A program made the position numbers and the translations under genes. The notes below the pieces were generated by a model that made no database searches, was not told where the DNA came from, and worked only from the letters and a program-made list of their open reading frames with translations. A stretch of 36,023 bases of DNA from Desulfobulbaceae bacterium (GTDB lineage Bacteria; Desulfobacterota; Desulfobulbia; Desulfobulbales; Desulfobulbaceae). The DNA lies in assembly GCA_013201405.1 (NCBI GenBank), contig JABMJC010000007.1:1-36023 (forward strand), read 5' to 3'. Positions 7,654-32,006 of the stretch are shown here, one piece after another (position 1 is the stretch's first letter; the number at the start of each line of letters is the position of its first letter).

Positions 7654-8478
7654 TTGGTTGGCTTTATGTGTTGCGATTATGGGCTGAGCATACGGCAATC
7701 CTGTTCTGCGCTGGCGTTAAGCCGCTCGGTGTACAGTTACAAGCCCAGGCCACGCGACGACTCGCCACTCATTAAAGCGCTTCTCTCGCTGGCCGAGCGG
7801 TATCCGCGCTACGGTTTCGGGAAGCTGTTTTCGGTCCTGCGCAGGCATGGTCACCGATGGAATCGCAAACGGGTCTACCGCGTGTACTGCCTGCTGAAAA
7901 TGAACCTGCGCCGGAAAGGAAAGAAGCGGCTGCCGTCAAGAAATCCCAGGCTGTTAGCTGTTCCCTCCGCCGCGAACATATGTTGGTCCATAGATTTTAT
8001 GCATGACGCGCTGGCGAACGGCCAGCGGTTTCGCACGTTCAACGTGTTGGACGACTTCAGCCGGGAATGCCTGGCCATTGAAGTGGACACCAACCTTCCC
8101 GCGGCCAGGATTGTCCGGGTTCTGGAGCGGATCGTGGCCTGGCGCGGCCTGCCTGATAAATTGAGAATGGATAACGGACCGGAGCTTGTCTCTGTAACTC
8201 TGGCGGACTGGGCGGAAACAAACAGCGTGGAACTGGAATTTATCCAGCCTGGCAAGCCAACCCAGAATTCCTACGTAGAGCGCTTTAACAAAACGTACCG
8301 GAATGAAATTCTGGATTTTTATCTGTTCAGTACGCTGACGGAGGTGAAAGAAATCACTCGGACCTGGATCAAGGAATACAATGAGGAAAGACCTCACGAC
8401 TCACTCGGAAAAATGACCCCAGCCGAGTTTGTCGTGGCCCACTCAACTCAGAATATCTCTACTTATGGATGGTACTAA
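7654..8478 (+). CDS. IS3-family transposase OrfB (DDE integrase core)
   Basis: 274 residues if begun at the TTG at 7654; in practice it is probably made mostly as the frameshifted OrfAB fusion, whose frame is open from the slippery site at 7621-7627. An HTH_21-like region (about 35-90, RYGFGKLFSVLRRHGHRWNRKRVYRVY) is followed by the rve catalytic core. The triad is D114 (WSIDFMHD), D173 (RMDNGPE) and E209 (YVERFNKTYR), with exactly 35 residues between the second Asp and the Glu, the DD(35)E spacing of retroviral-type integrases. The C-terminus YNEERPHDSLGKMTPAEF is also diagnostic. No truncation or stop is visible. Confidence 0.95.
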   Translation: MVGFMCCDYGLSIRQSCSALALSRSVYSYKPRPRDDSPLIKALLSLAERYPRYGFGKLFSVLRRHGHRWNRKRVYRVYCLLKMNLRRKGKKRLPSRNPRLLAVPSAANICWSIDFMHDALANGQRFRTFNVLDDFSRECLAIEVDTNLPAARIVRVLERIVAWRGLPDKLRMDNGPELVSVTLADWAETNSVELEFIQPGKPTQNSYVERFNKTYRNEILDFYLFSTLTEVKEITRTWIKEYNEERPHDSLGKMTPAEFVVAHSTQNISTYGWY

Positions 8479-19175: not shown

Positions 19176-19921
19176 ACGTCACTATACCGCCTCCTCGGCT
19201 TTATATAAAAGGATTGCGGTCAACCGGGCCGTACCGAAACCCTCCTGATAGGGGCGTTGAAAAAGCAAATTTTTCCTCACGATAATAATTATTATTAAAC
19301 CCGACCACAACCGGCAGACATCGTCCGGCTGGTGGCGGGTTGCCCTTGGCGAATCGCCGTTTCAGGCAAACGCCCCCGTGCTTGCATACTGATCTATTCT
19401 GATGATCAGGCCCGGTGTCGTATTGCTTCTCCGTACTGGAGGAAGAAACATATACCACGTGTCGCTGCATCAATCAAGTGCAAGGATAAACAAGTATTGC
19501 AATACCCATGAAGCAGTGGATTATAAAGGCCAACAAAATCAGGTCTGCGCAGGAAGTTTGGTGGGGGAAAAATTTGTGGATGTTTTTTGAAGCGGCAACG
19601 GTGCAACACAGGAACAATAACGCTCACCCGCCTAAGGTTCGACCATGGAAGCCAAATGTTTCAGTCGATCGATCAGCGCCGGTTCAAGGCTCTGAGCCTG
19701 GACGCTCTAGCTGCAGGACAGCGGCTCATGCGAGAGCCCCATGTCGTGTTGTTGGCGATGGTGTCAGCCACTTGACACATGGTTGTTGGTAAAACTTGCC
19801 CAACACAGATATGAAAATTTCTGCGAACAAAGGCCAGGAGGAGACGTGCGATGGGTGAAAAGATGTCGGCCAGGGCCGATCTGCTGCACCTGCCTCTGCC
19901 CTGGCCAACTGATTGAACTTG
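19176..19921. other. 746-nt region without a convincing gene
   Basis: Several short open frames on both strands have no recognisable motif. An AT-rich palindrome (ATAATAATTATTAT) lies near 19282-19295. A plus-strand frame at 19587-19775 (62 residues) and a small one at 19851-19916 with GGAGGA upstream are the best candidates but resemble no family I know. The end nearest the SDR gene holds a terminator-like repeat (separate entry). It may be a decayed gene. Confidence 0.5.
19868..19906 (-). terminator. Inverted repeat downstream of the SDR gene
   Basis: GGCCAGGGC (19868-19876) and GCCCTGGCC (19898-19906) are perfect inverted repeats with a 21-nt loop. On the minus strand they lie just after the SDR stop (19922), and ATCTTTTC follows about 5 nt later. 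A weak rho-independent terminator is likely. Confidence 0.5.
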
Positions 19922-26092: not shown

Positions 26093-28396
26093 ATGTCATC
26101 ACGTAGCAACCCGTCGACCAATCCGCTGATCCGCACCCGCAAGACCAAGCCCCTGTTCTTTACCGCCACCTGCGCCACGGGCCTGGAACAGTTGGTTTAC
26201 GAAGAAATTTCAGCCTGTGGTGGGCAAAACATCGTCATCAAGCCTGGTGCAATCAGTTGGAACGGTGCACTGGAAAGCGGCTACCGTGCCTGCCTCTGGT
26301 CGCGCTTTGCCTCGCGCATCCTGCTGGAACTGGCCCGCTTTGACGCACCCGACACAGATGCCCTCTACGAGCACAGCTCTGCTGTACTCTGGGATGAACA
26401 CCTGAGTGTGAAAAAGACCTTTGCTGTACACTGCACCCTGGTGAATGCGGCCATTACCCATTCGCAGTTCGCTGCCCTGCGTGTAAAGGATGCCATTGTC
26501 GATCAGTTTCGCCGCCGTTTTGGTAAACGGCCGAATGTCAACAGCTTCAATCCGGACCTGCGCCTGAATGTACATGTGCAGGGCACCAGCGCAAGCCTGG
26601 CGCTTGATCTGGCTGGCGACAGCCTGCACCGGCGTGGCTACCGCATGGCCACTGGCGAAGCTCCGCTGAAAGAGACCCTGGCCGCAGCCATTGTCCACCT
26701 CTCGGGCTGGCTTAAGCGGGTGAAGGATGAGCCCATTCTACTGGACCCCATGTGTGGCAGCGGCACTCTGCTCATCGAGGCGGCACTGATGCTGACCGAC
26801 AGTGCCCCTGGCTTGCAGCGCAAACGTTTTGGTTTCATGGCCTGGAACAAGCACGACCACAAACTGTGGGAACGGCTGAGTGCCGAGGCCCTGGAACGCG
26901 AAGCTGTGGGCGAACCCAAGGAATGGCCGCAATTTATAGGCTACGATGCCGATCCACGCGCCGTAGCCGCGGCCCGCAAGAATGTCATTGCCGCTGGCCT
27001 GCGCAAGGTTATTGTCATCCGACACCGCCCCTTGGCCCGTCTGCGCAGCCCTGGCCCGACCGGCTGCCTGCTCACCAACCCGCCTTACGGCGAACGCCTT
27101 GCAGACAAAGAAACAGCACGCTACCTCTACCGCTGCCTGGGCCGCAGCTATCGCAATTTTTTTCCTGGCTGGCGCTTTGCTTTTTTCACGGCCAATCCAG
27201 AATTCGCCGACGTGCCCGCAGTACTTTGGCAAGACGAACACCAGCTGTACAATGGCCCGCTCAAATGCCGCCTGCTGGTGGGACATGAAAGCCGGCCGAC
27301 AGGCATGGAGCCACCCCATGCCCAGTGGCAACCGCAGACGCTGGAACCTGGCAGCGCAGGGGAAGATTTTGCCAACCGACTGGTGAAAAATTATGCTGCA
27401 CTGGCCAGTTGGATCGAGGCCGAGGGCATCCACTGTTTCCGCCTCTACGATGCGGATATACCGGAATACAACCTGGCAGTGGATTGCTACGGAGAATGGA
27501 TTCAGGTGCAGGAGTACGCTCCCCCTTCCACGGTGGATGCAACCAAGGCAGCCGAGCGGCTGCAACTGGCGCTGGCCGTGCTGCGGGAAGTATTGAGTGT
27601 GCCCCACAGTCGCATCTTCATCAAGACAAGAAAACAGCAGAAAGGACACAGCCAGTATCAGAAGAAAAAAAGCGGCCACAGCCAAGGCCAGCGACCCGCA
27701 CAGGCCCAGCGCAACCCACAACTCCACGAGGTGCGTGAGGGAGAAGGCCGCTTTCTCGTCAACTTTACCGACTATCTCGATACCGGCCTTTTCCTTGACC
27801 ACCGCCCCATCCGCCGCCGCATCCAGGAACTGTCCAGGGGGACAACCTTTCTTAATCTCTACGGCTATACCGGTTCAGCCACGGTGTTTGCCGCCCTGGG
27901 CGGGGCCAACTCCACCACCACGGTGGATGCCTCTGGTGTCTACCTGGCACGGGCCAACGCCAATTTGGCCTTGAACGGTTTTGGCGGACCACTGCACCAA
28001 CTGGTCGAGGCCGATTGCCTGCAATGGCTCAAACAGTGCCAGGAACGCTTTGGCCTGATCTTTGTCGATCCACCCACTTTCTCCAACACTAAAGATAAGC
28101 GAGCTTCCTTTGATATCCAGCGCGACCACGCTGCCCTCTTGCGGCTGGCCATGCAGCGACTCAGCCGAAGCGGACTACTCATCTTTTCGACCAACTTCCG
28201 TAAATTTTCGCTGGACAAAGAACTCGGCCAGGAATTTGCGCTAAAGGAGATCAGCGCAGCCACCATCCCGCCTGATTTCAGCCGCAACCAGCGCATTCAC
28301 CGCTGCTGGGAGCTACGCCACCTTCAGCAACCAGATGATCAAGGTAGCCAAGAAGAACAAAGTCGCCAAAAGAAGGAGGAAAACCTGCTGCGCTAA
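26093..28396 (+). CDS. rlmL: Bifunctional 23S rRNA methyltransferase RlmKL (m2G2445 / m7G2069)
   Basis: 767 residues, somewhat longer than the ~700 of E. coli, mainly because of a lysine/glutamine-rich linker (about 515-550). The N-terminal half has a THUMP domain, then LDPMCGSGTLLIEAALML (S-adenosylmethionine site) and LLTNPPYGERL (N2-guanine methylation of G2445). The C-terminal half has VNFTDYLDTGLFLDHRPIRR, FLNLYGYTGSATVFAALGGA and FVDPPTFSN (RlmK, m7G2069). Both catalytic motifs are intact. The ATG at 26093 has no clear ribosome site; there is no better upstream start in this frame. The 3' end overlaps the convergent prmA by 4 nt. Confidence 0.94.
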   Translation: MSSRSNPSTNPLIRTRKTKPLFFTATCATGLEQLVYEEISACGGQNIVIKPGAISWNGALESGYRACLWSRFASRILLELARFDAPDTDALYEHSSAVLWDEHLSVKKTFAVHCTLVNAAITHSQFAALRVKDAIVDQFRRRFGKRPNVNSFNPDLRLNVHVQGTSASLALDLAGDSLHRRGYRMATGEAPLKETLAAAIVHLSGWLKRVKDEPILLDPMCGSGTLLIEAALMLTDSAPGLQRKRFGFMAWNKHDHKLWERLSAEALEREAVGEPKEWPQFIGYDADPRAVAAARKNVIAAGLRKVIVIRHRPLARLRSPGPTGCLLTNPPYGERLADKETARYLYRCLGRSYRNFFPGWRFAFFTANPEFADVPAVLWQDEHQLYNGPLKCRLLVGHESRPTGMEPPHAQWQPQTLEPGSAGEDFANRLVKNYAALASWIEAEGIHCFRLYDADIPEYNLAVDCYGEWIQVQEYAPPSTVDATKAAERLQLALAVLREVLSVPHSRIFIKTRKQQKGHSQYQKKKSGHSQGQRPAQAQRNPQLHEVREGEGRFLVNFTDYLDTGLFLDHRPIRRRIQELSRGTTFLNLYGYTGSATVFAALGGANSTTTVDASGVYLARANANLALNGFGGPLHQLVEADCLQWLKQCQERFGLIFVDPPTFSNTKDKRASFDIQRDHAALLRLAMQRLSRSGLLIFSTNFRKFSLDKELGQEFALKEISAATIPPDFSRNQRIHRCWELRHLQQPDDQGSQEEQSRQKKEENLLR

Positions 28397-29340
28397 CGCA
28401 CAAAATAACGCGCAAAACGGAGCGCCACCCACTCCTCTTCGTACGTGCGCTCCAGCAGATGAAAACCTGCCTGACCATAGCAGCGGATTATGTTTTCTTC
28501 CTGGCTGCCCGCCAAGATCCCGGCCAGCACCAGTTGCGCAGATAGGGCAGCCAAACGACCCAATAACGGCTGCATCTCCACCAACACATCGTGGACGATG
28601 TTGGCCAAAAGAAGATCATAGTGCCCCCTGACTTCGGCCAGGGGCGTGGCTGCGACCGTGATCCGGTCGGAGAGCCGGTTGTGCGCCACATTCTCCCAGG
28701 CCACCCGCACCGCTTCGGGATCATTGTCAATGGCAAGTACCTCGCCTGCCCCCCACAGGGCCGCGCCCATGGCCAGAATACCGGTGCCTGTACCCACATC
28801 CAGCACCTGCCCAGGACGGTGTTGCCGAAAAGAGCGCTCAACCAGATACAATGCGCCACGGGTGGAGGCGTGCTGTCCCGTGCCAAAGGCCATACCAGGA
28901 TCCATCTCCAGTACCTGCTCACCAGGCAGTGGCGCATACTCTTCCCAGGATGGCTTAATCACCAGGCCCGGGGCAATGGTAAAGGTTTTGAAGTGCTGTT
29001 GCCAACTGGTGGCCCAATCTTCATCGGCCAGTAATTCCCGCCTGAACTCTGGCAGAGGCTGGTTAAAAAGAGCAAACAACTCGGCCAGGGCGGTCTGCAC
29101 TGCACCGACAAGGTGTTCCATCTGCTCCTGGCATACAGCTTCAGCCCCAGCTTCAACGTGAAAATATCCACTCAGCCAGCTGCCTGCTTCAGACTCCAGG
29201 CCCTGTTCCACCCCGCTGCCACTGTGCACTCCCAAGAGGTCGCTGGCTGCCTCAACCAGGATGGCCGGACACAAAAAACTCAGTTTCAACCATTTCCCGG
29301 CAGACCCACAGTCCTGTTCCTTCTTTTCTTTCTTGACCAT
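28393..29340 (-). CDS. prmA: Ribosomal protein L11 methyltransferase PrmA
   Basis: 315 residues. A substrate-binding N-terminal domain is followed by DWATSWQQHFKTFTIAPGLVIKPSWE, then MDPGMAFGTGQHASTRGAL and VLDVGTGTGILAMGAALWGAGEVLAIDNDP, and LLLANIVHDVLVEM, the NPPY-like motif of PrmA (here LANI). It trimethylates L11 lysines and the N-terminus. The ATG at 29340 lacks an obvious ribosome site. The N-terminal ~10 residues (MVKKEKKEQD) are lysine-rich and look dispensable. It diverges from the HsdR-N-like gene across a region containing a palindrome. Confidence 0.94.
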   Translation of the reverse strand: MVKKEKKEQDCGSAGKWLKLSFLCPAILVEAASDLLGVHSGSGVEQGLESEAGSWLSGYFHVEAGAEAVCQEQMEHLVGAVQTALAELFALFNQPLPEFRRELLADEDWATSWQQHFKTFTIAPGLVIKPSWEEYAPLPGEQVLEMDPGMAFGTGQHASTRGALYLVERSFRQHRPGQVLDVGTGTGILAMGAALWGAGEVLAIDNDPEAVRVAWENVAHNRLSDRITVAATPLAEVRGHYDLLLANIVHDVLVEMQPLLGRLAALSAQLVLAGILAGSQEENIIRCYGQAGFHLLERTYEEEWVALRFARYFVR

Positions 29341-29360
29341 GACTACAACACAACATACCT

Positions 29361-29377
29361 TTATTGATAATCAATAA
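29361..29377. promoter_or_regulatory. Perfect 17-bp palindrome, candidate operator
   Basis: TTATTGATAATCAATAA is an 8-1-8 perfect inverted repeat in the divergent region between prmA and the HsdR-N-like gene. It resembles operators of metal regulators such as Fur only in having a GATAAT core, and no binding protein can be named. A second small stem, GCTCCT/AGGAGC, follows at 29379-29396. Confidence 0.5.
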
Positions 29378-29433
29378 CGCTCCTCAACACAGGAGCAACC
29401 AAATCCCCAAGGACAAAAAACCGAATCTTTCCG

Positions 29434-30012
29434 ATGATCGACACCTCCGGACACCATCTTGTGTACGGTCGCTTACAAGATTACTTAAGCGGCAAAACCC
29501 TGCCAGACACCGATGACGAACGCATCCGCCAGGAACTGGCACGCTATCTGGTGGAGCGGCTTGGCTATGCTCCGGGCGAACTTGAACCAAGGCTCAAAAT
29601 CATCAGTGAATTTGGCGGCAACCGGGTGGAAAGCCTGATTGATCTGTGCGCACGCATAAAGGGCAAACGGCTCTTTATTCTCCGCTACGGGCCGGGTTCA
29701 CTGGTTACCCGGGAAACTGCCGCCATTGCCGCAGCCCGCATTCTGGAGCCTGCATATTGCATTCCCCTGGCCATTGTCACCAACGGCCGCGATGCGGAAC
29801 TGCTGGAAAGCGCCACAGGCAAGGTGCTGGCCACGGGTATGGACAGTATTCCCAGCCGCGAACAGGCAAAAACCCTGCTGAAGGAATTGCCTTTTGTACC
29901 CTACAGTAACCCGTTGAAACGGGAGCAGGCCCAACGCATCCTCAACGTGTTTGACCAGGAGGTCTGCTGCGCGGGCAAACAGTGTGATACAGAGGTAGCA
30001 CACGACCTTTGA
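29434..30012 (+). CDS. HsdR N-terminal-like (PD-(D/E)XK-related) domain protein, probably non-catalytic
   Basis: 192 residues. YGRLQDYLSGKTLPDTDDERIRQELARYLVERLGYAPGELEPRLKI, then SLIDLCARIKGKRLFILRYGPGSLVTRETAAIAAARIL and IPLAIVTNGRDAELLESATGKVLATGMDSIPSREQA follow the pattern of the small type I restriction HsdR-N (HSDR_N_2) proteins found in sulfate reducers. In the nuclease motif the first Asp is present (D70) but the expected (D/E)xK reads ILR (82-84), so nuclease activity is unlikely. The C-terminus has CCAGKQC, an extra cysteine cluster. There are no HsdM/HsdS genes nearby. The ATG at 29434 lacks a strong ribosome site. Function unknown; nucleic-acid binding is the most that can be proposed. 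Confidence 0.72.
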   Translation: MIDTSGHHLVYGRLQDYLSGKTLPDTDDERIRQELARYLVERLGYAPGELEPRLKIISEFGGNRVESLIDLCARIKGKRLFILRYGPGSLVTRETAAIAAARILEPAYCIPLAIVTNGRDAELLESATGKVLATGMDSIPSREQAKTLLKELPFVPYSNPLKREQAQRILNVFDQEVCCAGKQCDTEVAHDL

Positions 30013-30034
30013 CTATGTTGCCGCAGCGTTGTAC

Positions 30035-30055
30035 TCTAATATGTTCTTTATTAGA
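30035..30055. promoter_or_regulatory. Inverted repeat upstream of DAHP synthase
   Basis: TCTAATA (30035-30041) and TATTAGA (30049-30055) are perfect inverted repeats with a 7-nt spacer, 42 nt before the aroF-type gene. It could be an operator or a weak stem-loop. No regulator is suggested. Confidence 0.35.
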
Positions 30056-30096
30056 AACAAGCGAGCATCACTTTTTTGCAAACCAGGCATCCCGAC

Positions 30097-31452
30097 ATGA
30101 GCATAAACACTCCTGCATCCACTTGGACAAAGACAAGCTATCGCAACAAAATCGCCCTGCAGCAGCCCAACTGGCCTGACAAGGAGCATTATGAGCGTGT
30201 CCTGCACACCCTGGCCAACCTGCCACCCTTGGTTTTTGCCGGTGAGATCCGCGATCTCAAGGGCCTTTTGGCGCAGGCCGTGCGCGGCGAGGCCTTTTTG
30301 CTGCAAGGAGGCGACTGTTCCGAGGAGTTTGCTCGCTGCACCGCACCCAACATCCGGGAAACTCTGAAGGTGCTCCTGCAGATGGCCGTTATCCTCACCT
30401 ATGCCGGTAACAAGCCGGTGGTCAAGGTGGGCCGCATTGCCGGGCAATACGCCAAACCACGGTCCAGCGACACCGAACTGGTGAATGGCACGGAAATACC
30501 CAGCTACCGCGGCGACATGGCCAACTCGGCCGAACCGGTACTGCAGGCACGAATGCCAAATCCAGAACGTCTCCTCCAGGGCTACCACATGTCAGCAGCC
30601 ACCATGAACCTGTTGCGTGCCTTCACCCGCGGTGGTTTTGGCTCTCTGCACCGGGTACAGGCCTGGAACCAGGAGTTTGTTAAACAGTCGCCCATGGGCC
30701 GCAGTTATGAACGCATGGCCAAACAAATCAGCAACGCCCTCAAGTTCATGGACACCATTGGCATCTCCACCGACACGCCCCAACTGAAGGAGGCGCGCTT
30801 CTTCACCTCGCACGAGGCGCTGTTTTTGGGTTACGAAGAGGCAATGACCCGAGAAGATTCCGTAGATGGCGGCTGGTACGACTGTTCGGCCCACATGCTC
30901 TGGATAGGAGACCGTACCCGCCAACTCGACGGTGCACATGTCGAATTTTTAAGCGGCGTACACAATCCACTGGGCATGAAGGTGGGCCCAAACTACGATA
31001 TCGACACCATCCTCGCCATTATCGAGCGACTTAACCCGCATAACGAACCAGGCAGAATGACCCTGATTACCCGCTTTGGTGCAACTGCCATTGAAAAGCA
31101 CCTGCCGCCGCTCTTGCGGGCGGTGAACAGGGCCGGGCTCAGTGTCCTTTGGACCTGCGATCCGATGCACGCCAACACCTTCAGCTCGGCATCCGGACAT
31201 AAAACCAGGGACTTTGAAAACATTCTCTCGGAGCTGCGCTGCTTCTTTGAACTCAACTGGGCAGAGGGCACCATCCCCGGCGGGGTACACTTTGAGCTGA
31301 CCGGCGAAGATGTCACCGAATGTATTGGTGGGGCACGGCAGCTTTCACCTGAGCAACTGGGTCTGCGCTATCTCACCACCTGCGATCCCCGCCTCAATGC
31401 GGAGCAGGCCCTGGAAATGGCCTTTCAAATCGCAGAGATGATCCGTAGCTAA
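30097..31452 (+). CDS. Class II 3-deoxy-7-phosphoheptulonate synthase (DAHP synthase)
   Basis: 451 residues of the plant/Mycobacterium-like class II family, unrelated in sequence to AroF/G/H of E. coli. Motifs include FLLQGGDCSEEF, KVGRIAGQYAKPRS, PSYRGDMAN, SHEALFLGYEEAMTR, GDRTRQLDGAHVEFLSGVHNPLGMKVGP and CDPMHANT, and GGVHFELTGEDVTECIGG near the C-terminus. It condenses phosphoenolpyruvate and erythrose 4-phosphate as the first shikimate-pathway step. The ATG at 30097 is preferred over the TTG at 30076 because AGG lies nearby and the extra seven residues look non-homologous. No other shikimate gene is near, so it appears monocistronic. Confidence 0.96.
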   Translation: MSINTPASTWTKTSYRNKIALQQPNWPDKEHYERVLHTLANLPPLVFAGEIRDLKGLLAQAVRGEAFLLQGGDCSEEFARCTAPNIRETLKVLLQMAVILTYAGNKPVVKVGRIAGQYAKPRSSDTELVNGTEIPSYRGDMANSAEPVLQARMPNPERLLQGYHMSAATMNLLRAFTRGGFGSLHRVQAWNQEFVKQSPMGRSYERMAKQISNALKFMDTIGISTDTPQLKEARFFTSHEALFLGYEEAMTREDSVDGGWYDCSAHMLWIGDRTRQLDGAHVEFLSGVHNPLGMKVGPNYDIDTILAIIERLNPHNEPGRMTLITRFGATAIEKHLPPLLRAVNRAGLSVLWTCDPMHANTFSSASGHKTRDFENILSELRCFFELNWAEGTIPGGVHFELTGEDVTECIGGARQLSPEQLGLRYLTTCDPRLNAEQALEMAFQIAEMIRS

Positions 31453-31493
31453 GTACGCGGGTTGTGTTCCAACACAGGTAAGGCAGAGGGGCC

Positions 31494-32006
31494 TTATATA
31501 GGTTCAAGCATGATTTCGAGCGCTGGATCGCCACCCACATGGGGAGCCATCACAGGAACCGGGGTAGAGCGCAGCATACGGGTAAAAACCATGCCGAGCT
31601 GAGCCGGATCCCCGGTGTCCAGCAGGAGCTCCAGGTTGCTTTCGTCCCGCAGCATCCGCCCCAGCTTACCCAAGAGCAGTAAATAATCCAGATTTTCGCC
31701 AGGCTGACCCAAAAGCAGCACCAGTACCTGCACCGGCCGCTTGTCTTGGCCATCGTACTGAATGCCAGTTTCACTGTAGCCCAGAGCCAGAAGCTTGCCG
31801 CGCACGCCTTCCACCTTGCTGTGGGGAATGGCTATACCATTACCGATATAGGTTGAACCGAACTGTTCCCGGTGCAGCAGGGCGTTGAGAACATGCTCTT
31901 CATTCAATTCCGGTTCAAGTCTGGCCGCCAAGGCGCTCAACTCTTGCAGGGCCCCTTCCCTGCTGTTGGACTTCAGTTGGACAATTGATTTTTCACTTAA
32001 TTTCAC
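31494..32006 (-). CDS. ptsN: PTS IIA-like nitrogen-regulatory protein PtsN
   Basis: 170 residues. The phosphorylated histidine is H62 in GNGIAIPHSKVEG, the standard IIA-Ntr motif, followed by LVLLLGQPGENLDYLLLLGKLGRMLRD. PtsN receives phosphate from the nitrogen PTS and regulates potassium and RpoN-linked processes. The start is a GTG at 32006 that forms GTGA with the rpoN stop, so translation is coupled to rpoN. The order rpoN then ptsN lacks the ribosome hibernation factor gene (hpf) that often sits between them. PTS enzyme I-Ntr and HPr are not in the window. Confidence 0.9.
   Translation of the reverse strand: MKLSEKSIVQLKSNSREGALQELSALAARLEPELNEEHVLNALLHREQFGSTYIGNGIAIPHSKVEGVRGKLLALGYSETGIQYDGQDKRPVQVLVLLLGQPGENLDYLLLLGKLGRMLRDESNLELLLDTGDPAQLGMVFTRMLRSTPVPVMAPHVGGDPALEIMLEPI

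Follow-up and report, generated by a model that had tools for sequence, protein, structure and literature searches.

Analysis of the 192-amino-acid ORF at 29434..30012 (+) of the window, the whole 36,023-nucleotide stretch of DNA analysed here, revealed a real gene under selection that encodes a stand-alone HSDR_N_2 protein, predicted to adopt the PD-(D/E)XK fold without its catalytic pair. We give about even weight to the reading that this protein is a pseudonuclease, that is, a free-standing HsdR-N domain that has lost the catalytic Glu and Lys and has been selected as a binding protein, against all other explanations taken together. The pseudonuclease part of this reading appears well supported by the sequence, and binding rather than cutting is what we infer for its role. 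The library name of the domain comes from restriction enzymes and implies a cutting role, but the sequence does not support cutting. None of the titles and portions of abstracts found in literature searches concerns this family.

Within the 192-residue protein, PF13588 (HSDR_N_2) matched residues 28-140 with an E value of 4.3e-9 and 36.9 bits against a cut-off of 25. This was the one Pfam family to exceed its own cut-off, and there was no helicase domain, so that the protein does not qualify as a type I HsdR subunit. The absence of an HsdM/S partner stated in the original prediction was borne out: a Pfam scan of seven proteins of the window revealed no hsdM or hsdS, and the remaining long ORFs of the window were read by eye. 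The genome of the window holds one copy of the gene and a single match to HSDR_N (PF04313), which lies on a different contig. Searches of PADLOC and PHROGs gave no match to the protein, and no relative of it was found among phages, plasmids and viral contigs at the sensitivity used, leading us to reject a mobile or defence origin of the gene. With a pI of 6.0 and a net charge of −2, the protein is mildly acidic, as is the family (median pI 5.7 over 105 rows). Charge was discarded as a sign of DNA binding, being non-diagnostic: HSDR_N_2 domains that keep E-x-K span acidic to basic.

An AF2 model built from the window protein and 20 relatives (mean pLDDT 75.1, pTM 0.74) contained an alpha-beta-beta-beta-alpha-beta core, with its elements in the order expected for PD-(D/E)XK proteins: helix 27-42, strands 50-60, 63-75 and 78-85, helix 94-104 and strand 112-116. 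The pLDDT fell below 50 at residues 1-7 and 180-192, leaving the C-terminal tail without reliable structure. In the VIA-align ranking, the model was closest to the 3h1t HsdR fragment (Z 8.8 over 124 residues, rmsd 4.1), a modest score given that the tool lists 7-8 as typical of models without a clear match, and to BsaXI (Z 8.6 over 132 residues, rmsd 3.3), followed by BpuSI (Z 5.7) and EcoR124I HsdR (Z 5.4), so that the top four families are restriction enzymes throughout. BsaXI was also the only Foldseek match at an E value of 0.001 or better (4.8e-4) and the only hit, at E 0.57, in a sequence search of solved structures. Together, the order of core elements and the structural matches predict a PD-(D/E)XK phosphodiesterase fold, in agreement with the HsdR-N assignment of the original prediction, which had called for such a comparison.

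Active PD-(D/E)XK nucleases carry the catalytic set D...(D/E)xK, which is absent from the window protein. Alignment by hhalign with 11 HSDR_N_2 domains that keep E-x-K placed D70 at the first Asp (codon 29641..29643, +), R84 at the Glu, Y85 at the middle position and G86 at the Lys, so that R84-Y85-G86 (29683..29691, +) replaces the catalytic E-x-K. The original prediction had read ILR in place of (D/E)xK; it was right that the catalytic pair is lost, but its register was off by two, since ILR corresponds to residues 82-84. According to the family column counts and the AF2 model, G86 also begins a conserved loop, G86-P-G-S-L-V-T-R-E94 (29689..29715, +), that leads into helix 94-104.

To place these residues in the family, we used 157 distinct proteins, the window's included, derived from 228 profile hits all sampled within the window's phylum after merging identical proteins and dropping ORFs of more than 400 amino acids (except L087) and matches spanning 100 or fewer profile positions. 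This set includes close relatives, giving it a weighted size of about 94, and the profile behind it was made from members without E-x-K, which favours such members. None of the 157 proteins combined an acid at position 70, an acid at position 84 and a Lys at position 86, and position 84 was Arg or Lys in 126 of them. At the level of these alignments, loss of the catalytic pair is a family-wide trait, as the family was collected here. A deep clade of short members (f39; L228-L236) retains parts of the set: six of its nine proteins have Asp at position 84, two of these six also have Lys at 86 but Pro at 70, and L228 has acids at both 70 and 84 with Ala at 86. Such partial sets could represent stages of active-site loss.

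The same columns bear on an alternative in which the protein is still a nuclease with a relocated site, where the metal is bound by E29, D70 and, from the helix, E94, with R84 in the role of the Lys. The original prediction had itself listed an intact active site formed by other residues as an outcome that would refute it, and the acidity of these positions is widespread, with E29 in 142, D or E at position 70 in 141 and E94 in 122 of the 157 proteins, and all three acidic in 105, which makes metal binding possible and counts against the pseudonuclease reading. Migration of the Glu also has a precedent in Cfr10I/NgoMIV-type enzymes. Set against this, the family has no conserved Lys, D and E exchange at position 70, and position 94 is His in nine and Arg in eight proteins that cluster in one subclade. 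These observations only partly exclude a site built from other residues, and we consider a relocated active site unlikely.

Both the distribution of the gene and its pattern of substitution point to maintenance of the protein. Among the window's kin, 82 of 95 genomes (own genome included) carry the gene, one copy in each, and it is present in 60 of the 67 with a completeness of 90% or more and a contamination of no more than 5%. In a draw across the phylum, 118 of 394 genomes matched a profile of 31 members at E 1e-6, a count that includes at least three genomes (G346, G468 and G473) whose sole matches fall in the N-terminal part of long proteins of the MAD2 type; PF13588 matched 31 of 31 diverse family members at E 0.01 or better. 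Estimates of dN/dS against four relatives were about 0.10-0.18, values that are rough since dS exceeded 1 in each comparison, and the columns are strongly conserved across 21 members of the window's order. Decay of a former restriction or defence gene would account for the lost catalytic residues and for its absence without trace from one genome of the same genus, but this explanation is contradicted by the low dN/dS and is hard to square with single copies kept across the kin and with the column conservation, and we regard it as scarcely credible. Nuclease domains without catalytic residues in this many kin and phylum genomes point instead to an unrecognised binding function. In a family tree that was built quickly, with 44 of 102 inner branches open, many clades track genome groups, and several genomes hold two members from separate clades. 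One genome carries two members of different clades in tandem (L180; G477:C6:61126-61641 and 61896-62405).

The cysteine cluster noticed earlier at the end of the protein is present as C178, C179 and C184 (29965..29985, +) and recurs in much of the family. Across the 157 proteins, Cys makes up 13.9% of residues from position 174 on (0.139 per residue) versus 1.1% (0.011) in the core. Two or more tail Cys occur in 101 of the 157 and three or more in 77, with fewer than two in 56; within the window's order, the corresponding counts are 49 of 49 for two or more and 41 of 49 for three or more. On a tree built without the tail, the trait of two or more tail Cys requires at least seven changes over 105 rows. 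The existence of clades without a Cys tail indicates that the family at large does not require one.

Survey of the neighbouring genes, a check that had been proposed with the original prediction, revealed a conserved partner in the window's order. The next gene downstream, on the same strand and separated by 84 bases, encodes a class II DAHP synthase (30097..31452, +; PF01474, E 2.7e-201), and of 49 distinct order loci, 45 likewise have a class II DAHP synthase immediately downstream in the same orientation, the exceptions being L047, L158, L162 and L167. The distance between the two genes ranges from a 6-base overlap to 353 bases, approximate figures that take the beginning of the tblastn match as their end point. 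Upstream genes vary: prmA, the divergent upstream neighbour in the window by Pfam scan and locus comparison (28393..29340, −), is found upstream in the 19 loci of the same genus (own included) and in few others. The presence of class II DAHP synthase directly downstream across the window's order is new here. All 45 such loci belong to members of the order, and among the collected loci none outside it has a downstream class II DAHP synthase. Elsewhere in the window, an ORF at 7654-8478 that reads by eye like an IS3-type transposase, which we presume it to be, sits among housekeeping genes.

This arrangement could mean that the protein regulates or partners the adjacent enzyme, modulating class II DAHP synthase within this order and other enzymes in other clades, as the constancy of the downstream gene beside variable upstream genes would suggest. 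Several observations argue against such a partnership. Five of seven order genomes that lack the gene gave a class II DAHP synthase match when probed; in two of the genomes without the gene, G039 and G062, the match lies near a contig end and is less informative, but G019, a genome of the same genus that is 99% complete, keeps prmA and DAHP synthase 164 bases apart (locus L246) with no trace of the gene between them, indicating that the gene is dispensable there. Conversely, the family is present in four genomes from outside the order (G119, G126, G203 and G302) in which a search at E 1e-30 found no class II DAHP synthase. Members of other clades adjoin genes for apolipoprotein N-acyltransferase (lnt) and a peptide chain release factor, for phosphoglycerate mutase (iPGM) and RsfS, or for an HD phosphohydrolase and a deaminase; no restriction genes were among the recurring neighbours looked at. 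Within the window's order, the association with class II DAHP synthase is conserved and firm, though not obligatory, and we hold a role as partner of the adjacent enzyme to be doubtful. The variety of unrelated housekeeping neighbours in other clades also counts against the binding-protein reading. The natural absence of the gene from G019 makes the question testable within one genus.

The perfect palindrome reported in front of the gene is present exactly as described, an 8-1-8 element, TTATTGATAATCAATAA, at 29361..29377 between prmA and the HSDR_N_2 gene. Its occurrence is unusual locally, in that none of 3000 shuffles of the 93-base intergenic stretch gave such a palindrome (spacer 0-1), and not unusual for the window as a whole, which contains one perfect palindrome (arms of at least 8, spacer 0-1) against a mean of 1.27 in 30 shuffles. 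The accompanying suggestion of regulation went unsupported. Elsewhere in the genome, no copy occurs with one mismatch or fewer, and one occurs with two. For 34 other distinct homologues, the upstream 160 bases contain neither an exact copy nor a perfect palindrome of the 8-1-8 form; the closest match there is 13/17, in L002 and L022. This lack of conservation led us to reject the palindrome as a shared regulatory site. In L002, the nearest relative, the 13/17 match lies at an equal distance from the start codon, a resemblance that may reflect only close kinship. The palindrome may be a local site, but it does not belong to the biology that the family shares.

We also weighed whether a Fur-like metal regulator binds the palindrome, which would make the Cys-tailed product a metal-stress protein. 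The palindrome agrees with a Fur consensus at 14 of 19 positions, in one place, and 20 shuffled windows averaged 0.1 such sites, counted on one strand; however, an AT-rich run at 19281-19299 of the window scores higher, at 15/19, and the match is not conserved upstream of homologues nor repeated in the genome. We judge Fur-type control highly improbable. The sole hit of a promoter scan of 29200-30200, at 30124-30152, falls within the DAHP synthase gene, and none lies at the palindrome. As for an RNA element in 28300-31600, the candidate was dropped after two Rfam hits that were both far under their gathering scores. Immediately after the palindrome lies a hairpin, GCTCCT...AGGAGC (29379-29396), that is terminator-like on the minus strand, and L002 has a similar hairpin with other letters at the same place.

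Returning to the pseudonuclease reading, we propose that an HsdR-N domain of the PD-(D/E)XK fold, which has lost its Glu and Lys and has Arg or Lys at the Glu position, has been kept by selection as a binding protein. The putative ligand would be DNA or RNA, seated in the ancestral cleft and contacted there by R84, R93 and R102, and the Cys tail might bind metal or work as a thiol switch. Under this proposal, the pairing with DAHP synthase would reflect co-transcription and not mutual need. More speculatively, and with low confidence, these proteins may be vertically inherited, phylum-wide pseudonucleases that share their origin with the N-terminal domain of MAD2 methyltransferases. Their catalytic Glu would have become Arg/Lys and a Cys tail would have been gained, and they would serve in housekeeping as sensors of nucleic acid, with a switch based on metal or redox state, after recruitment from defence machinery.

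The kinship to MAD2 (NF047738, the methylation-associated defence DNA methyltransferase) is the closest that we found outside the stand-alone family, and lies with the N-terminal parts of MAD2-type methyltransferases. Residues 13-59 of the window protein match MAD2 weakly (E 0.0075), and the arm before helix 1 and the helix-1 motif are common to the MAD2 N-terminal domain and the window protein; in contrast, MAD2 itself carries a full methyltransferase, which the window protein lacks, and 14.6 bits against a cut-off of 720 for a model of 654 positions leaves the protein outside MAD2 (MADS). No MAD2 match was found in the window's genome at E 1e-20, and a MAD2 partner there was rejected; across 55 genomes, 14 had some match and none exceeded the cut-off. 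Six long MAD2-type proteins (L237-L242) have E-x-K columns that read like C-R-P or C-R-Q; two of the six were scanned, both scoring over the MAD2 cut-off, and a seventh (L243; 673 bits, under the cut-off) keeps E-x-K. MAD2's own nuclease-like domain may, from these columns, be dead in the window's phylum.

Among better known systems, the window protein resembles PF13588 HSDR_N_2 domains in its profile match, its predicted PD-(D/E)XK fold, E29, R32 and Q33 of helix 1 and the first acid D70, but differs in having no catalytic E and K, in standing alone without a helicase and in its added Cys tail. The HsdR subunits represented by 3h1t and EcoR124I and the nuclease domain of BsaXI are alike in fold by VIA-align, but are parts of large restriction enzymes, whereas the window protein is free-standing. 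An inactive PD-(D/E)XK domain is also found in RecC, where the nuclease fold, without catalysis, is kept for binding as part of a large helicase-nuclease.
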